A stretch of 41,418 bases of DNA from NCBI GenBank assembly GCA_031280375.1, contig JAITGU010000023.1:1-41418 (forward strand), written 5' to 3'. The DNA comes from Candidatus Methanovirga procula (GTDB taxonomy: Archaea; Methanobacteriota; Methanobacteria; Methanobacteriales; Methanobacteriaceae). The stretch's first letter is position 1. Each line of letters begins with the position of its first letter. A program made the position numbers and the translations under genes. Of the stretch, positions 905 through 11,796 are shown in pieces. The notes under the pieces were generated by a model. That model saw only the letters and a program-made list of their open reading frames with translations. It was not told where the DNA came from and did no database searches.

Positions 905-1162
905 GTGGCTAAGCTCATGTTGATGGTGAGTGGAAAAGATAAGACTTTGAATGTGAAAAAGTTTGAGTATCACTTGTCAGGATTTTTGGTGCTGTTGATT
1001 TTTGGCTTAATTTTCTATGGGGTGTATTTTGCATCTAATAGATTATTTAAAGAAGATAAATTAAAAAGCATCTTATTTACTTTATCTGTTTTGTTATTGA
1101 TGATAATAGTTTTTAATAAAATGATTTTGTTGATGATTGTTTGTAAAACCTGTGGAGGTTAA
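905..1162 (+). CDS. Small two-TM membrane protein (candidate immunity protein, hypothetical)
   Basis: ORF with two hydrophobic segments; its 3' end contains the GGAGGT ribosome binding site of the next gene, suggesting translational coupling. Confidence 0.6.
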   Translation: MAKLMLMVSGKDKTLNVKKFEYHLSGFLVLLIFGLIFYGVYFASNRLFKEDKLKSILFTLSVLLLMIIVFNKMILLMIVCKTCGG

Positions 1163-1166
1163 AATA

Positions 1167-1928
1167 ATGAAAAATGAAATGAAAGGTTTATTTGTAATTG
1201 GATTAATACTGACTTCAATAGTTGGTAGTAGCTTTGCATTTAATATGCAAAATATGAGTAATAATCAGTCAAGTTACTTTGATGGAGTTTTAGCAGATTC
1301 AAAGAATTTTGAATATATTTGTCCAAGTAAAACTGGAGCTTTAGTAGATGTTTTGGATAGTAATCCCTGCAGTAATCTATTGACAAAATATAATTTTAGT
1401 GATGCTAATAATGAAGATTTATTAAACGAACTTAATAATAATCTTAAAAAAAATGCTGCTAATAACTCTAATTTATCTAATATTGAGATTGTAGGATTCA
1501 AATTCAAGCCAATTAATAGTGATTACTTTAATGTTACAGTTGACGAGAATAACATTGTTAAAGTGACTCAGTTACAAGATGTGGAGGATAATGAACAAGT
1601 AATGTTTTTAGCGGTGAATTTAGTGGTTCGTAACATAACTTCAGGTGATATCAGTGATTATACTTTTATTAGTTTTTTAGCTGATAAGAATCCTCATGTT
1701 CCAAATGTCAATAAAAAATTGGTTAATCCATTACTTCGATTGCCTGCAGTTGTATGTGAACCTGCATGTGCAATTATTGGTGTTATTATTACTCAAGAAG
1801 GAATAGGTGCATGTATAGCAGCATGTTTGTCATCAGGGTTCGCATGTGTTGTATGTGGTTTAATTTGGACAGCAGCCGTAGCTTTAGGAGTATATGATTG
1901 TAAGCAAGTTTGTTATAATCATGTGTGA
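1167..1928 (+). CDS. Secreted halocin C8-like bacteriocin precursor (candidate)
   Basis: Signal peptide MKNEMKGLFVIGLILTSIVGSSFAF; GGAGGT upstream of ATG 1167; C-terminal domain CEPACAIIGVIITQEGIGACIAACLSSGFACVVCGLIWTAAVALGVYDCKQVC with eight Cys in CxxxC/CxxC pairs and Gly/Ala-rich hydrophobic spacing like halocin C8. Confidence 0.7.
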   Translation: MKNEMKGLFVIGLILTSIVGSSFAFNMQNMSNNQSSYFDGVLADSKNFEYICPSKTGALVDVLDSNPCSNLLTKYNFSDANNEDLLNELNNNLKKNAANNSNLSNIEIVGFKFKPINSDYFNVTVDENNIVKVTQLQDVEDNEQVMFLAVNLVVRNITSGDISDYTFISFLADKNPHVPNVNKKLVNPLLRLPAVVCEPACAIIGVIITQEGIGACIAACLSSGFACVVCGLIWTAAVALGVYDCKQVCYNHV

Positions 1929-1945
1929 AATTTGTTTGCAGATTT

Positions 1946-2020
1946 GAGGTTGCAAATTTTTGTGGAGTTTTCTCATTTTTCATGTCTTTTTATATATAAA
2001 ACTGAATTTTCATGAAAAAC
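1946..2020. mobile_element. Partial family 1 miniature element (copy B) directly after the halocin-like gene
   Basis: GAGGTTGCAAATTTTTGTGGAGTTTTCTCATTTTTCATG closely matches the reverse complement of the right arm at 12064-12102; opposite end degenerate. Confidence 0.45.
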
Positions 2021-2060
2021 TCTATTATTTTTTTATTTACATTATCGGGAGGTTTTATTC

Positions 2061-2342
2061 ATGGATATTAAAAAAACTTTACAATTTTCTGTTCTTTTAG
2101 GGGGTTCTTCTCTTGTATTTGTGTTTATTTATAGAATACTTGGTGTTCATTTGAAGGTATATGATCTCATATCCTTTCAACAGTTAGTTCTTCCTTTATG
2201 GTTTTTTGCAATGTTTGATGGAGGTTTTGAAGATATAAGTACTCTTAGGTTTAAAAATAGGATTCTTAATAAAAAAATTGTCAAAATTTTTGTCATAAAT
2301 TTAGTATTCATATTATTAGCGTTCATATTATGTAATATTTGA
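2061..2342 (+). CDS. Small multi-TM membrane protein (candidate immunity protein, hypothetical)
   Basis: 93 aa ORF, GGGAGG ribosome binding site, three hydrophobic segments. Confidence 0.65.
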   Translation: MDIKKTLQFSVLLGGSSLVFVFIYRILGVHLKVYDLISFQQLVLPLWFFAMFDGGFEDISTLRFKNRILNKKIVKIFVINLVFILLAFILCNI

Positions 2343-2370: not shown

Positions 2371-5117
2371 ATGTTTTTGAATAAGAGTAAATTGATAATA
2401 ATATTTGCACTGTTTTTAATGGTTAGTGCAGTTCATGGTGTAAATTTTGGTGGATTTAATCATATTGGTTTATTCCATTCAATTGGTTTTGATGAATTGG
2501 GATTTGATGAAGTTATTATAAACCGACAAATGGGACAATAGCTGATGCCTTAAAAATTAGTGATCATGTTTTATTAATGCCAGGTACATATACTGGAGAA
2601 TGTAATACAAATATTAATATAAGTGGAAATAAGTATATTCATGCAATTGATCCAGAGATGGTTGTGATTGATGGAGCAGGAAAAACTAAACTATTCAATG
2701 TTGAAAAAAATTCTATTCTGAATTTGACTAATCTTGTGTTAACTGGAGGATGTGACAATGGAGGAAATGGAGGTGTAATTTTTAGTAATGGTTCATTAAA
2801 TATTAAAGGATGCACTATCCATAACAATAATGTCACTATCGGTGGGATATATGTTGATGGTATCAGTAATACTAATACTTTTAGTTTTATTAATAATAAA
2901 ATAATTAATAATCATGGATTACTTTGTGCTGGAGTATATATTAATGGATCTAATGGGATAATAAAAAACACCATGTTTGAAAATAATAGTAACATTAATC
3001 CAAATGCTTCTTCTTCAGCATTAATAATAAGTGGACAATTTAATGTTAATATAAGTAATTCTACTTTTAAAGACAATAATGGGTCTGTAGGTGCTGGATT
3101 AAGAATTTTAGGATCACCAGAAGATATTAAAAACTCAAAAACCATTATAAACAACTCAATATTTCATGATAATGAAGGAAGTCAAAGTGGAGCTGGACTA
3201 ATGTGTATGTGTTCTGATGTCTCTGTTGAAAATAGTAAGTTTTATAATAATAAAATAGATGAAAAATATGATCCTTTTAAATTTCTTTCTAATGGTGCTG
3301 GTGTGTATACTGCTAATTGTGAGCTGAATATTAAGAATTCTGAGTTTAGGAATAATAGTGCTTTGTATGGTTCTGGGTTATGTAATGAGAAGGGCACTAA
3401 TACAACTATTTAGAATTGTAATTTTGTAGATAATGTTGCGAGAGGTTATGGTGCTGGTATGGTAGTGTTGAATGGAAATTTAGATGTTAGAAATACTAAC
3501 TTCACGAACAATACTGCTAACATGGATACAAGTACTGATGATAATAATGGAGGAGGAATATACTTATTCAATGGAAATATTAATGTTGATAACTCTACTT
3601 TTAAAAATAATCATGCTAATCATGGTGCTGGATTGGATACCAGATTTGCTAATGTGAATATTAAAAATTCATTATTTGATGGTAATAATGCTGTTTATGG
3701 TGGTGGAGTATACACTCGTGGGGGAAATATTACTTTAAGTAATTCTGCATTGTCTAATAATAATGTTAGTATGAATGGTGGAGGAGTTTATAACTTGAAT
3801 GGTTCTGCTACTATTGATAACTGTAATATATCATCTAATATTGCTGCTGATAATGGTGGTGGTTTAGATGCAAGATATGGTAGTTATAATATTAAAAATT
3901 CTTTGATTAGTCATAATACTGGTAAGAATGGTGCTGGTGCTTATGTTCACTATGGTAATCTAAATATTACTTCATCCAATGTATCTGATAATAGTGGTGA
4001 GTATGGTGCTGGTTTATTCTGTGAAGATGGAAACCTTAACTTATTAAGTTCCAATGTATCTTTTAATCGTGCTTCACTTAATGCTGCTGGAGCATACAAT
4101 ATAAATGGTACAGTCACTATTGATAATTCCACCTTTGAAGGTAATGTTGCTGGTAATAATGGTGGTGGATTGGATACAAGGCATGGTAACTCATATATAG
4201 TTAATTCTAAGTTTATTAAAAATAATGCATCACAAGGAGGTGGATTCTACACTCGAGACGGTAATGTGACTATAAATAATACAGTACTCTCTGATAATGT
4301 TGCCATGTGTAATGGTAGAGCTATATACAATAATAATCCAATGACAATCCAAAAATGTACTTTTGAAAATAATAAGGTAGTATTTAATGATGGTGGAGCA
4401 ATAAAGAACTATGCTGAGATGAATATTAGTGATTCTGTGTTTAATGGTAATATTGGTATATATTTTGCTGGTGCTATTCGTAATGAAGGTTCAATGAAGA
4501 TTAACAGGACAATATTCACTGGGAACAAGGCTTTCAATGATAATGATGCTGTTTGGTCTGGTGCTGTGTTTTCTTGTGGTGATTTGCTTGTAGAAAATTC
4601 TAGTTTCCAAGATAATCAAGCCAACTATAAATCAGTGAATTCATGTGGTTATGCTGGTGCAATTTATAACTGTAGAGGTAAATTTACTGTGTTAACTTCT
4701 AATTTCACGGGTAATAAAGCTGGTTTTGATGGTGGTGCGGTTTATACTGATGGGGGGGATTTTGTTGTGAGAGATTCTAAATTCATGGATAATTTTGCAG
4801 GTGAAAGAGCTGGTGCTTTACATAATTGGGTGGGTAATTGTAATGTAATTAATTGTGAATTCATGAATAATAGTGCTCCTAATGGTGGTGCATTTTACAG
4901 TGATGGAGGTTCACATAATAATATCACATCATCCACATTTAAAGATAATGAAGCAGATCGTGGAGGAGCAATATATAGCAGTGATAATAGTTATTTAGAT
5001 ATAGGAGATTCTACTTTAACAAACAATAAAGTAGATCATATATTTGATTCCATACTCGGTGTTATAAATAAAAATGGTAAATATAACAATATTATAATAC
5101 ATAATTGTGCATTTTAA
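2371..5117 (+). pseudogene. Adhesin-like protein with pectate-lyase-type beta-helix repeats, disrupted
   Basis: Signal peptide MFLNKSKLIIIFALFLMVSAVHG starts at 2371 in frame 1; the body (GTIADALKISDHVLLMPGTYTGECN...) continues in frame 3 from about 2526 (frameshift), with an in-frame TAG at 3411-3413; many N-x-x-F-x-x-N-x-A-x-x-G-G-G/A repeats. Confidence 0.8.
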
Positions 5118-5611: not shown

Positions 5612-6631
5612 TTAAGATTTCCAATCATTGTATCCTTTTTTGAGTAATACTAAGAATAGTGGGGCACCTATTACTGCTGTTAAGATTCCTATTGGAATTT
5701 CGATTAAAAATAATCCTCTTGCAATATCATCCATTAATAAAAGAAATGATGCTCCAAAACTTATACTTGCAGGCAATAATATTTTATTATCTGGTCCTGT
5801 TAATATTCTTGTCATATGAGGCACTATTAACCCAACCCATCCTATAACTCCAGATAGACACACTGCGGATGCTGTTATAAAAGTTGATATTATAATAAAC
5901 ATTAATCTTAGCCTTTCTGTGTTTAATCCAAGGGCTTGAGATTCTTCATCACCCATTGCTAAGATATTTAATCTCCACCGAAGTAGAATTAGAATGATTA
6001 ATCCAGTAATTATTATTATCAACACTGGAATTAATGTTTTTGGGTTGATTGATGCAAGAGAACCCATTAGCCAAAAAGTTATTTCTGGTAATTTATTGTT
6101 TGGGTCTGCTAAGAATTTGGCTGATGATATTAATGAACCAAAAAATGATGATATTGCCATTCCAGATAAGACTAAGACAAGTATACCTGAGGTTTTGTAA
6201 ACCCTTGAGATGAAGTAGGTGATTGAAACTGAAATCATACCAAATATAAATGCTGAAAGTTGGATGAGGTATGAACTTCCATTTAGTAGTATTGCTATTG
6301 CCGCACCAAATCCTGATCCTGATGAAACTCCTAAAATATCTGGTGAAATAAGAGGATTTTTGAATATTGCTTGGAATGTCGCTCCAACAACTGAAAGTGC
6401 TGCTCCTACAACTAATGCTCCTATTATTCGGGGTAATCTTATGTTAAATACTACTGAAGTGATGGTGTCTGATACTGCATAACTTGGATCAAATTTTGAA
6501 ACTAAGGTGTATATGACTTCTATTGGTGTTACTGGGTATCGTCCTATTAAAAATGACATGAAAAATAGTGTTATTGGTATAAATATAAATATTAAGTGTA
6601 GAATTGTATATTTACCCTGTTTAAAATTCAT
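5612..6631 (-). CDS. FecCD/BtuC-family iron-siderophore/cobalamin ABC transporter permease
   Basis: VFNIRLPRIIGALVVGAALSVVGATFQAIFKNPLISPDILGVSSGSGFGAA and GVIGWVGLIVPHMTRILTGPDNKILLPAS are typical FecCD motifs. Confidence 0.92.
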   Translation of the reverse strand: MNFKQGKYTILHLIFIFIPITLFFMSFLIGRYPVTPIEVIYTLVSKFDPSYAVSDTITSVVFNIRLPRIIGALVVGAALSVVGATFQAIFKNPLISPDILGVSSGSGFGAAIAILLNGSSYLIQLSAFIFGMISVSITYFISRVYKTSGILVLVLSGMAISSFFGSLISSAKFLADPNNKLPEITFWLMGSLASINPKTLIPVLIIIITGLIILILLRWRLNILAMGDEESQALGLNTERLRLMFIIISTFITASAVCLSGVIGWVGLIVPHMTRILTGPDNKILLPASISFGASFLLLMDDIARGLFLIEIPIGILTAVIGAPLFLVLLKKGYNDWKS

Positions 6632-7500
6632 TTAATCACATATTTTTATTTTTAGTATTTCAGTTATTTTTTTTTATTATTGGAGGATGTCTAACAACTC
6701 AAATTTTTAAAGAATTGGTTGTATGATCTTCAATTTTAAAGACTATTGCCATGACAAATTTATTCTTTCTATTTTAGTATTGATTTTATTATTGATAATT
6801 TTTCATTAGAATCGTATTTAGTGAAATTTCAACTGATTAATCCTTTGATTTCCTGAAAACTCATTTTTAAAATTTTACTAAATTATTTTGTCTTGACACT
6901 ATGCTATCTTATTCCATGTAAAAATAATTAGGTCAGCTCATTATACTAACTAATAAGATTTTAATTTTAAATATTATAATTTTTAAATTAATCCAATGAG
7001 TAATTCGTAACTATTAATCTAACTTATACTTATTTAATTACATTTATATTGAACATAAATACATTTGAGGTTTATTTTTTTATAAAATTATTTAAATAGA
7101 AAAATCATTATAGTATCTTGTATTTATTTTTAGATTAATAATTTTATATTTTAAAAATTAATTTTAAATTTTTATAAAATTTTAAATTTTTATAAAAATA
7201 TTTTAAATATAATCTTAAATTTTTATATTTTAAATTATATATTGTTCAATTTCTCTATTTTTAAAAACAATATAATAATATATTTACAATTAAAATCAAA
7301 ATAATAATATACTTACTTTATTATAGTTACATACATTAATTAAGAAATTATGATAGATAATGTAATTCATTTATAATCTTAAGTTTATTATCTTAAATAT
7401 TTATAAGTAGTTAATATTACCTTTAATTGTACATGATATAATTACAAAAACAGTATCTTATCATTTAATATTATAAAAACAGTATAAAGTAAATGCGTTG

Positions 7501-8424
7501 ATGATTATGGATGAAAATGGTAAAATTTGGATGGATGGAAAATTTGTTAATTGGAATGATGCTAATATACACATTCTTTCTCATGTTATACATTATGGTT
7601 CAAGTGTTTTTGAAGGGATAAGGGCTTATGATATTGATGGAAATGTTGGAATTTTTAGATTAAAGGAACATGTTCAAAGGCTCTTTGAATCTATGAAAAT
7701 ATATCGCATGAATATATCTTATACTCCAGAAGAAATATCTGATGTTATTAAAGAGACAATAGCTATTAACAATCTTAAGAAATGTTATATCCGGCCTGTT
7801 GTTTATCGTGGTTATGGAACTTTTGGTGTTGATCCTCAAAAATTACCAGTTAACATAGCTATTGCTGTTTGGAGTTGGGGGCAGTATCTTGGTGATAATG
7901 CAGTTGAAAAAGGTGTTGATGTAGGGGTTTCGTCTTGGAGACGTTTAGCTCCAAATACTCTTCCAAGTTTGGCTAAATCAGGAGCAAATTATATGAATGC
8001 TCAACTTGCTAAATTAGAGGCAAGTGAAAACAATTTGGATGAATGTATTATGTTAGATATTGAAGGTTTTATTGGTGAAGGTAGTGGGGAGAATATTTTT
8101 TTAATTAAAGATAATATCATATATACTCCAGCTATTTCATCCTCTATTCTAAAAGGAATAACAAGAGATTCTGTTATAACCATAGCTAAAGATTTAGGTT
8201 ATGAAGTTGTACAAGAGAAGATACCAAGAGAACTATTATATGTGGCTGATGAATTATTTTATTCTGGAACTGCTGCTGAGATAACTCCAATAAGAACGGT
8301 TGATGGAATAGATGTTGGTAATGGAAAGGTAGGTTCTATTACTAAATCCATCCAAAGTGAATTCTTCAACATAATCAGAGGAAAGTCAGAGGATAAATAT
8401 CAGTGGTTAGATATATTAGATTAA
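7501..8424 (+). CDS. ilvE: Branched-chain amino acid aminotransferase
   Basis: [35 protein letters not shown] and [22 protein letters not shown] motifs of class IV aminotransferases. Confidence 0.95.
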
Positions 8425-8430
8425 ATAGCT

Positions 8431-11400
8431 ATGATTAGTATGGATTACTTTGATAGATTAGAAAAAGAAACTCAGGAATTATATGCAATAGCTAATCATG
8501 CAAGATCAAAAGGTTTTGATGTTGAAGTAGAAACTGAAATACCTTTAGCAAAGGATTTAGCTGAAAGAGTTGAAGGGCTTGTTGGTCCAAAAGGAATAGC
8601 TAAAAGAATTAAAGAATTGGAGAAAGAAAAAAATTCAAGAGAAGAAGTTGCTTTTGTAATAGCTTCTGAAATAGCTTTAAAAGAGCCTGATAAAGAACAA
8701 ACTAAAGAACAGTTAGCTGATCAGGGACTTAGAACAGCTTTAGCTATTTTAACAGAGGGTGTTGTTGCAGCTCCTCTTGAAGGAATATCTCAAGTGAAAA
8801 TAAAGCAAAACTTTGATGGAAGTCAATATTTAGCTGTTTATTTTGCAGGTCCTATTAGAAGTGCAGGAGGTACGGCTGCAGCTTTGGCTGTTTTACTTGG
8901 TCATCAAATTATGAAGACAACAGGTCTTAGTAAATATCAGCCGATTGATTTAGAAGTTGAGAGATATGTTGAAGAAGCTGAACTTTATGAATCTGAAGTC
9001 ACAAATCTCCAATATTCTCCTAAACCAGAAGAATTAAGGTTAACTACTAAAAATATTCCAGTTGAAGTGACAGGAGAGCAAACTGATAAAATTGAGGTTT
9101 CACATAGAGATTTAGAACGGGTTGAAACAAACAATATTCGTGGTGGAGCATTACTTGCGATTATAGAAGGAGTAATTCAGAAATCTGCTAAAGTTATTAA
9201 ATATGCTAAAGAACTTGGATTGGATGGATGGGAATGGTTAGAGGTGTTTAATAAAAAGTCTGCTGAGAAAAAAGATGATAGTGAAGATGAAAAACCTAAA
9301 GCCAAATATATCGAAGATATAATCGGTGGTCGGCCAGTTTTAGGTTATCCTAATGAGAAAGGTGGTTTTAGACTTCGTTATGGTAGGTCAAGAAACACGG
9401 GTTTAGCAGCTATGGGTGTAAATCCTGTAACAATGGAATTATTAGAGTTTTTAGCTGTTGGAACTCAAATGAAAATTGAAAGACCTGGAAAAGGAAATTG
9501 TGTTGTTCCAGTAGATTCAATTGAAGGACCTATTGTAAAATTAAGAAATGGTGATGTGTTAAAGTTAAAAACGATTAAGGAAGCTGTTAAATATAGAAAA
9601 GATGTTAAAGAAATCCTGTTCTTGGGTGATATCTTAATTGCCTATGGTGAATTCTTAAGAAACAATCAGAATTTATTGCCTTCAGCTTGGTGTGAAGAAT
9701 GGTGGGTGGAAATCTTAATTCATTGTGAAGAATATAAAAATAATGGTTTGACTGTTGATTTAATCAATGGTGAAAATAATAAAACTATTTTAACTGTTAA
9801 TTTAAACAACAATAAAACCTTAGACTTGGAAGATTATAAAGACTTAGAAATATTTAATAATAGCTATATTTCTGCTAAAACCTCATTTGAAATATCTAAA
9901 AAGTATGATGTTCCATTGAATCCAGAGTACACATACTCCTACAATGATATCACCATCACTGATCTGAATTCTTTAATAACCTGGATACATAAATATGATT
10001 ACATTGAAGGAACAGATCTTAGTTTAGATTTATCTCCTGAAAAAAGAATATTAGAAATTATTGGTGTAAGTCATAAACTAAGGGATGGGAAAGTTATTAT
10101 AAATAATGATGATGCATACACCCTTTTCCACACTTTAAAGGAAAATGTAGATGAAAATTCTGATAAAACCACACTTGAGAAAATAAATGAAATATCAGAA
10201 GTTAAAATAATGAATAAATCACCCACATATGTTGGTTGTCGTGTTGGAAGGCCTGAAAAATCAAAAGAAAGGCTTATGAAACCAGCTCCACATTCACTAT
10301 TTCCTGTTGGAATCTACGGAGGAACAAGAAGACTATTAGCTGAAGCATCTAAAAATAAACATTATAGTGTAGAAGCATCTGAGAGAATTTGTGATAACTG
10401 TAACTCTAAATCATATAATTCAATTTGTTCAAAATGTGGTTCTTCAACGACAATCAGCAAACCTTCAAAAAGAAGAATATCTCTTGGAAACTTACTTAGA
10501 AAGGCAAGTGAAAATATTCGTGTTCGCCAAGTCAGTGAAGTTAAAGGTGTCAAAGGAATGATTTCAGAATCAAAACTACCTGAACCAATTGAAAAAGGAA
10601 TACTCCGTGCAAAAAATGAAGTATTCATCTTTAAGGATGCTACCATTAGACACGACTCAACAGATCTTCCATTAACACACTTCATACCAAAAGAAATTGG
10701 GGTGGCAGTTGAAAAATTAAGAGAATTGGATTATGATAAAGATATTCATGGAAGTCCAATTGAAAATGAAAATCAAATCATTGAATTAAAAGTTCAAGAT
10801 ATTGTAGTGTCTAAAAATTGTGGAAAATACTTAGTTAAAGTTGCTAACTTTATTGACGATCTTTTAGAGAGATTCTATAAAATAGATAGATTTTACAATC
10901 TTACAAATAAAGAAGATTTAATCGGTCATTTAGTTGTAGGTCTTGCACCACACACATCAGCAGGAGTTTTAAGCAGAGTTGTAGGGTTTACATCTGCACA
11001 CTGCTGTTATGCTCATCCTTACTTTCATTCAGCAAAAAGAAGAAACTGTGATAGTGATGAAGACTCTGTGATGCTACTTTTAGATGCTTTAATAAACTTC
11101 TCCAAAACATACTTACCAAGTACAAGAGGAGGAAGTATGGATGCTCCGCTTGTTCTCTCATCAAGAATAGATCCTGAAGAAATAGATGATGAATCTCATA
11201 AAATAGATATTATTGAAAAATTCCCATTAGAATTCTTTAATAAAACATACGAAGACCTTAAACCAACAGAAGTATTGGATTTAATTGATAATGTTGGAAA
11301 ACATTTAGGAACACCTCACCAATACGAGAATTTAATGTTTTCACATCATACCTCACAAATCGATGCTGGACCTAATATCTGCATGTATAAAACCTTAAAT

Positions 11401-11796
11401 TCAATGAAAGAGAAAGTTGATTCTCAAATTGCCTTAGCTGAGACAATACGTGCTGTTGATCAACAAGGGGTAGTTGAAGGTGTTTTATCATCTCATTTCC
11501 TACCAGATATTATGGGTAACTCCAGAACATTTTCTAAACAAAAAGTAAGATGTACAAAATGCAATGCTAAATATAGACGAATACCTCTTACAGGTAAATG
11601 TAAATGTGGAAACAATCTTATGTTAACTGTTTCAAAGGGTTCAGTAACCAAATACTTGGAAATTTCAAAAGATTTAGTGAGTAGATATCCAATTAATCCA
11701 TACATTGTTCAAAGGCTTGAAATCCAAGAATTAAGTGTGAATTCCTTATTTGAAAGTGATAAATCTAAACAAAGTTCATTGGATGCATTTTTTTAA
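8431..11796 (+). CDS. polC: Archaeal DNA polymerase D large subunit (DP2)
   Basis: 1121 aa with VYFAGPIRSAGGTAAALAVLLGH, QQGVVEGVLSSHFLPDIMGNSRTFSKQKVRC and Cys-rich zinc motifs; no intein interruption seen. Confidence 0.97.
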   Translation: MISMDYFDRLEKETQELYAIANHARSKGFDVEVETEIPLAKDLAERVEGLVGPKGIAKRIKELEKEKNSREEVAFVIASEIALKEPDKEQTKEQLADQGLRTALAILTEGVVAAPLEGISQVKIKQNFDGSQYLAVYFAGPIRSAGGTAAALAVLLGHQIMKTTGLSKYQPIDLEVERYVEEAELYESEVTNLQYSPKPEELRLTTKNIPVEVTGEQTDKIEVSHRDLERVETNNIRGGALLAIIEGVIQKSAKVIKYAKELGLDGWEWLEVFNKKSAEKKDDSEDEKPKAKYIEDIIGGRPVLGYPNEKGGFRLRYGRSRNTGLAAMGVNPVTMELLEFLAVGTQMKIERPGKGNCVVPVDSIEGPIVKLRNGDVLKLKTIKEAVKYRKDVKEILFLGDILIAYGEFLRNNQNLLPSAWCEEWWVEILIHCEEYKNNGLTVDLINGENNKTILTVNLNNNKTLDLEDYKDLEIFNNSYISAKTSFEISKKYDVPLNPEYTYSYNDITITDLNSLITWIHKYDYIEGTDLSLDLSPEKRILEIIGVSHKLRDGKVIINNDDAYTLFHTLKENVDENSDKTTLEKINEISEVKIMNKSPTYVGCRVGRPEKSKERLMKPAPHSLFPVGIYGGTRRLLAEASKNKHYSVEASERICDNCNSKSYNSICSKCGSSTTISKPSKRRISLGNLLRKASENIRVRQVSEVKGVKGMISESKLPEPIEKGILRAKNEVFIFKDATIRHDSTDLPLTHFIPKEIGVAVEKLRELDYDKDIHGSPIENENQIIELKVQDIVVSKNCGKYLVKVANFIDDLLERFYKIDRFYNLTNKEDLIGHLVVGLAPHTSAGVLSRVVGFTSAHCCYAHPYFHSAKRRNCDSDEDSVMLLLDALINFSKTYLPSTRGGSMDAPLVLSSRIDPEEIDDESHKIDIIEKFPLEFFNKTYEDLKPTEVLDLIDNVGKHLGTPHQYENLMFSHHTSQIDAGPNICMYKTLNSMKEKVDSQIALAETIRAVDQQGVVEGVLSSHFLPDIMGNSRTFSKQKVRCTKCNAKYRRIPLTGKCKCGNNLMLTVSKGSVTKYLEISKDLVSRYPINPYIVQRLEIQELSVNSLFESDKSKQSSLDAFF

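Follow-up and report, generated by a model that had tools for sequence, protein, structure and literature searches.

A candidate polymorphic archaeocin locus with a putative cognate membrane immunity protein in Candidatus Methanovirga

Gene content and distribution of the locus

The window, that is, the whole 41,418-nucleotide stretch analysed here, is a contig (C129) of the 84.8%-complete genome of Candidatus Methanovirga procula, and it carries a gene for a secreted, cysteine-rich precursor. The locus is probably an allele of a polymorphic bacteriocin (archaeocin) system in which a membrane protein confers the matching immunity. Its parts between 905 and 2360 lie on the forward strand. Only about 1.2 kb of the contig lies before the precursor gene, and no further upstream context is available.

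The precursor gene (1167-1928) is an open reading frame (ORF) of 253 amino acids. That this is not a chance ORF is indicated by a paralogue with 61% identity on contig C25 of this genome (G000:C25) and by homologues in three other genomes. The protein begins with a Sec-type signal peptide (residues 1-24, 1167-1238) that is kept in the relatives, with the predicted cleavage at MKNEMKGLFVIGLILTSIVGSSFA/F. The following pro-region of about 160 residues (approximately residues 25-188, 1239-1730) is conserved between loci in the alignment and ends near FLADKNPHVPNVNKKLVNP. An AlphaFold2 model of the precursor, run with seven homologues, has a predicted local distance difference test (pLDDT) value of ~70-90 over residues 61-190, consistent with a folded alpha/beta pro-domain, and a fold search with this domain returned weak beta-sandwich-like matches, none at E<=0.001. 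The C-terminus forms a putative mature core of 65 residues (1731-1925) with eight cysteines in four close pairs (CEPAC, CIAAC, CVVC, and CKQVC), separated by gaps of 3, 14, 3, 6, 2, 14, and 3 residues. The core, which appears as a helical hairpin at low confidence in the model (pLDDT 31-49), is likely a hydrophobic helical hairpin.

Upstream of the precursor is an 85-residue ORF with a GTG start (905-1162). Its 3' end (TGT GGA GGT TAA) contains the GGAGG ribosome-binding site of the precursor (1154-1158), which is conserved in the aligned homologues and precedes the precursor ATG at 1167. Downstream, a membrane protein of 93 residues with about two hydrophobic segments by hydropathy is encoded at 2061-2342. 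The sequence-only reading had described this arrangement, from the signal peptide, pro-region, and paired cysteines of the precursor to the ORF overlapping its ribosome-binding site and the membrane protein behind it, and the ORFs bear this out, with the correction that the upstream ORF is a fusion (see below).

At E<=0.001, profile searches seeded with seven homologues detect relatives in four of the seven Candidatus Methanovirga genomes; the phylum's 147 genomes outside this genus give none. The named genomes related to the window genome are those of Candidatus Methanovirga australis and M. aequatorialis (Methanobacteriales). The genus has been reported from lower termites only, in or on gut flagellates (PMC10684969, PMC13135261). 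Nine loci were obtained, comprising seven full precursors and two truncated ones (G129:C105 and the second copy in G129:C34). Weak matches outside Methanovirga were rejected, as most of them fall in long surface proteins; the match in G124 is a 214-residue flavodoxin-like protein whose similarity is confined to the vicinity of the signal region. There is no sign of a mobile element, because no relatives were found in viral contigs, plasmids, or phages. The candidate archaeocin system thus appears confined to Methanovirga as far as sampled.

Cassette exchange and the accessory region

Comparison of the window with the G130:C74 locus shows where the variation resides. Amino acid identity is 96% in the signal peptide and 78% in the pro-region, but only 27% in the core and 24% in the downstream membrane protein, and the latter two values are at the random level. 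At the DNA level, identity is 88-100% from 681 to 1400 and 78-85% up to 1720, drops to 42-54% between 1721 and 2360, and returns to 90-99% between 2361 and 2680. The segment at 1721-2360, which covers the core and the membrane protein gene, has an overall identity of 48.4% against a shuffled baseline of 47.3 +/- 1.9. The same drop is seen between the window and G130:C212, and between the two G130 loci themselves. As judged from these alignments, the core and the membrane gene are exchanged as one unit between homologous flanks.

The cores belong to type a (window and G129:C105), type b1 (G130:C74, G134, and the second copy in G129:C34), type b2 (G129:C34 and G000:C25), type c (G130:C212), and type d (G129:C57). 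The downstream proteins group as the cores do, with 90% identity within a, 65-82% within b1, and 65% within b2, and with random or weak similarity between groups. Core and immunity similarity are correlated over eight pairs (Mantel r=0.78, matched by 4 of 40,320 permutations) and over the six intact copies (r=0.66, p=0.019), although the nine loci, two of them truncated, represent few clusters or independent events, so that these p values overstate independence. The pro-region correlates with neither the core nor the immunity protein (r 0.15, p 0.25 for the latter). The dN/dS ratio rises from ~0.15-0.23 in the third accessory ORF described below, the most constrained part measured, through 0.32-0.53 in the pro-region and 0.49-0.73 in the core to 0.49-1.0 in the immunity gene.

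Displaced cassettes occur as well. Over approximately 1641-2360, G129:C105 shares 87-98% identity with the cassette of the window, while the upstream flank there is unrelated; the G129:C105 precursor lacks the signal, most of the pro-region, and two of the eight cysteines, and its immunity ORF is intact, with 90% amino acid identity to the 93-residue protein of the window. In G129:C34, a complete b2 cassette precedes a b1 core that has lost the N-terminal part of its precursor and has an intact immunity gene of its own. Remnants resembling the type-a immunity gene occur without a precursor in G129:C139 and G130:C53, one without a good start codon and one frameshifted. Remnants of this kind lie at 3450-3830 of L064 and 4005-4269 of L065, and L064 retains a CKTCGG-type ORF end (VCKACGC) upstream.

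The displaced G129:C105 cassette (L019, Candidatus Methanovirga aequatorialis) is located directly upstream of a thiazole/oxazole-modified peptide (TOMM) cluster at 6612-11696. This cluster comprises a 40-residue Cys/Thr-rich precursor-like ORF (6612-6734) ending in CTTTCCCCATCCTCSCL, a SagB dehydrogenase (TIGR03605, 111.7 bits, above the cut-off), a SagC-like protein, an ATP-binding cassette (ABC) transporter (ATPase and permease), and two ORFs (8709-9209 and 9206-10075) that together make up a SagD-type YcaO protein, divided by a frameshift or an assembly error. The location in a bacteriocin-like island fits a toxin-immunity function of the cassette without proving it, and a TOMM cluster in a methanogen is of interest in itself.

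In the homologous loci, three small overlapping ORFs precede the precursor. The first (MAKLMLxVSGKxKT..., ~35-50 residues) is followed by a protein with one transmembrane segment and a CPICP C-terminus, and by a protein of ~114 residues with three transmembrane segments and a CKTCGG C-terminus. The CxTCGG end of the third is kept even in the 38%-identical version of G129:C57. DNA alignment with four homologous loci, tblastn, and protein alignment show that 276 bp are missing across these ORFs in the window, with the junction at ~945-947, and that the deletion fuses the start of the first ORF (MAKLMLMVSGKDKT) in frame to the C-terminal part of the third, giving the 85-residue ORF. Since this ORF is what the deletion has left of otherwise constant accessory genes, it is probably a broken accessory region and not an immunity protein. 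On account of the deletion, the window copy may be impaired or decaying, or may rely on the C25 locus, which retains all three accessory ORFs.

Several neighbouring features were observed. Behind the divergent precursor, the first two accessory ORFs (MAKLML.. and ..CPICP) are present once more (L020, 4742-4949), accompanied by neither a third ORF nor another precursor. A secreted protein of 141 residues (..VTTDSEGIYHGVMTGSIDLSS..) is encoded upstream of the C25 locus (L021, 12242-12667). Its relative is the N-terminal part of a 186-residue accessory protein in the divergent G129:C57 locus (L020, 3066-3626), which suggests a further component of the system. Directly downstream of the cassette, the window carries an adhesin-like gene (MFLNKSKL..., 2371-5117), which is broken by a frameshift near 2522 and an in-frame stop at 3411-3413. 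The copy in L015, open from 3316 onward, served as the reference for these breaks, and further copies lie behind several precursor loci.

Interpretation and alternatives

We consider it probable that the locus is an allele of a polymorphic, cassette-exchanging archaeocin system of Candidatus Methanovirga, in which the downstream membrane protein protects the producer. The core and the membrane protein change together, as peptide toxins and their self-protection proteins evolve, and the truncated, signal-less precursors (G129:C105 and G129:C34) each adjoin an intact immunity ORF. The 93-residue protein is therefore likely the immunity protein. The pro-region is unlikely to have this role because it is constant while the core changes. 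A bacteriocin locus in a methanogen, as the sequence-only reading had proposed, is thus favoured by the comparison of loci; of the two putative immunity proteins that it had named, the downstream candidate is retained, and the upstream 85-residue ORF is set aside.

The export signal and the architecture, read directly from the sequence, imply that the precursor would be exported through Sec. We infer that the core is then oxidised and cut off from the pro-domain. The released core would insert into the membrane of related strains without the matching immunity protein, and the downstream protein, which co-varies with the core, would make the producer resistant to its own peptide. The small upstream membrane proteins, which stay constant and carry CxxC motifs at their C-termini (CPICP and CKTCGG), probably help in export or maturation and possibly in disulfide formation.

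Several points weigh against this interpretation. The evidence for it is comparative, and the correlation of core and immunity type draws on the few independent events mentioned above. The surroundings of the locus contain no recognisable protease, exporter, or disulfide enzyme. No family match was accepted from scans of Pfam, NCBIfam, PHROGs, and PADLOC, where none exceeded the cut-off, or of PDB sequences (weak matches to RpiB, pufL, and photosystem I were rejected as hydrophobic or low-complexity). The immunity ORF of the C25 paralogue is truncated to 88 residues with stops in the remaining part, and no clear immunity gene follows the divergent G129:C57 precursor. Moreover, the divergence of the orphan immunity genes is too low to prove selection for their retention.

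The best placed of the alternatives, although still an unlikely one, is an antigenically variable surface or adhesion protein, in which the C-terminus would be a variable hydrophobic anchor or contact module, the membrane protein a structural partner, and the variation a result of viruses or of the recognition of termite flagellate hosts. The adhesin-like gene directly downstream in several loci, the life of Methanovirga inside gut flagellates (PMC13135261), and the weak beta-sandwich-like matches of the pro-region model agree with such a protein. However, what varies is a short hydrophobic peptide rich in Cys and not an exposed repeat domain, cores without a signal are retained next to intact partner genes, and the type-b cores resemble an antimicrobial peptide domain.

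Pheromone-receptor pairs such as AgrD/AgrC and ComX/ComP also co-vary. The co-variation at the Methanovirga loci could accordingly reflect a polymorphic peptide signal that changes together with a cognate membrane receptor in self-recognition or quorum sensing, but this is quite improbable, as the partner proteins across loci have only 88-117 residues and 1-3 hydrophobic segments without a kinase or other output domain, and a pheromone would not be expected to be as long and as strongly hydrophobic as the core.

If the archaeocin interpretation is true, methanogens compete by polymorphic peptide toxins, and the core-immunity pairs are suited to cross-protection tests. Narrow-spectrum inhibitors of Methanobrevibacter-type archaea that are encoded by genes would then be at hand, and one would have to ask how disulfides can form outside a strictly anaerobic cell. 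The literature searched contained no characterised peptide bacteriocin of methanogen origin; the archaeal toxin survey of Makarova et al. 2019 may already predict this family. The only archaeocins listed as described before the work on archaeal lanthipeptides are the halocins of haloarchaea and the sulfolobicins of Sulfolobales (PMC10105419).

Comparison with known systems

Halocin C8: The halocin C8 precursor is likewise a secreted archaeal protein of ~250-300 residues with a hydrophobic, Gly/Ala-rich and Cys-rich C-terminal peptide of 65-80 residues, and the sequence-only reading had called the window precursor halocin C8-like on the basis of such a layout. The comparators were four haloarchaeal halocin C8-like precursors from the database, joined in the column-shuffle hhalign test by one extra row, the bait sequence with which they had been found. 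Against TIGR04449 (curated cut-off 24 bits), a Halobacterium precursor used as a positive control scores 49.1 bits, whereas the window precursor gives no match at E<=10, and its core alone and the genome give none either. The score of the window core against the halocin hidden Markov model (HMM) is reached by 68 of 1000 shuffles, and hhalign places it at chance, with 118 of 200 column shuffles doing equally well. The window core is thus not detectably related to halocin C8, and the likeness holds, weakly, for its b1 siblings.

The b1 cores score 13.5 bits against TIGR04449 (E 0.11, over 52 of 68 residues), which is below the cut-off and by itself no evidence, because most of the similar sub-threshold matches in other Methanobacteriota fall in ordinary membrane proteins. 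What carries the case is the comparison with shuffles and controls. Scores of 23-25 bits for the b1 cores against the halocin HMM are equalled by none of 1000 sequence shuffles, the hhalign result of the type-b alignment by none of 200 column shuffles, and Smith-Waterman comparisons of b1 cores with halocin C8 domains give p values of 0.0002-0.006. None of 47 membrane-protein control segments reaches p<=1/300, the best having 8 bits. The type-b cores, which align in register with the halocin C8 domain, are therefore probably distant homologues of it below the curated cut-off, and this link extends to the window core by its position in the precursor only.

ProC8 carries a twin-arginine (Tat) signal (PMC11509114), whereas the window signal MKNEMKGLFVIGLILTSIVGSSFA has no arginine and is of the Sec type. 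The eight cysteines are spaced otherwise than in halocin C8, and immunity is apparently provided by a separate downstream membrane protein. A true member of the halocin C8 family, with the pro-region itself as the immunity protein like HalI in ProC8, is the least probable of the alternatives despite the shared layout and the weak b1 matches to TIGR04449, given the missing match and the Sec signal of the window protein and a pro-region that is unrelated to the haloarchaeal ones (hhalign probability 0.1%) and constant while the core varies. It is possible, though somewhat less likely than not, that the Methanovirga loci represent a new family of methanogen peptide bacteriocins, distant kin to halocin C8 through the type-b cores, in which core and immunity gene are swapped as a single cassette within a constant precursor and locus, and which serves competition among close Methanovirga strains in termite guts.

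SdpC: The Bacillus sporulation-delaying protein SdpC has a Sec signal, a pro-region, a hydrophobic disulfide-bearing C-terminal peptide, a membrane immunity protein, and small maturation helpers. The Methanovirga locus has this layout in common, including the separate membrane immunity candidate and the small putative helpers. In contrast to SdpC, it has many more cysteines and a variable cassette; no NCBIfam match to the SdpC family and no SdpA or SdpB homologue were seen.

Polymorphic toxin systems: Systems of the contact-dependent inhibition (CDI) and Rhs type, which are also predicted in archaea, combine a conserved N-terminal delivery part with a swappable C-terminal toxin and an adjacent cognate immunity gene, and also have toxin tips with their immunity genes as displaced cassettes at other genomic sites. 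The Methanovirga loci resemble them in the constant N-terminus and variable C-terminus (pro-region 78% against core 27%, with the drop in DNA identity), in the eight co-varying pairs of core and adjacent putative immunity gene, with G129:C57 as the exception, and in the displaced cassettes of G129:C105 and the second copy in G129:C34. No large trafficking module or dedicated secretion system (CdiA, Rhs, or type VI secretion) and no Pfam or NCBIfam delivery domain is present in the 253-residue protein. Unlike the enzyme domains carried on the very large proteins of these systems, the putative toxin here is a short Cys-rich peptide.
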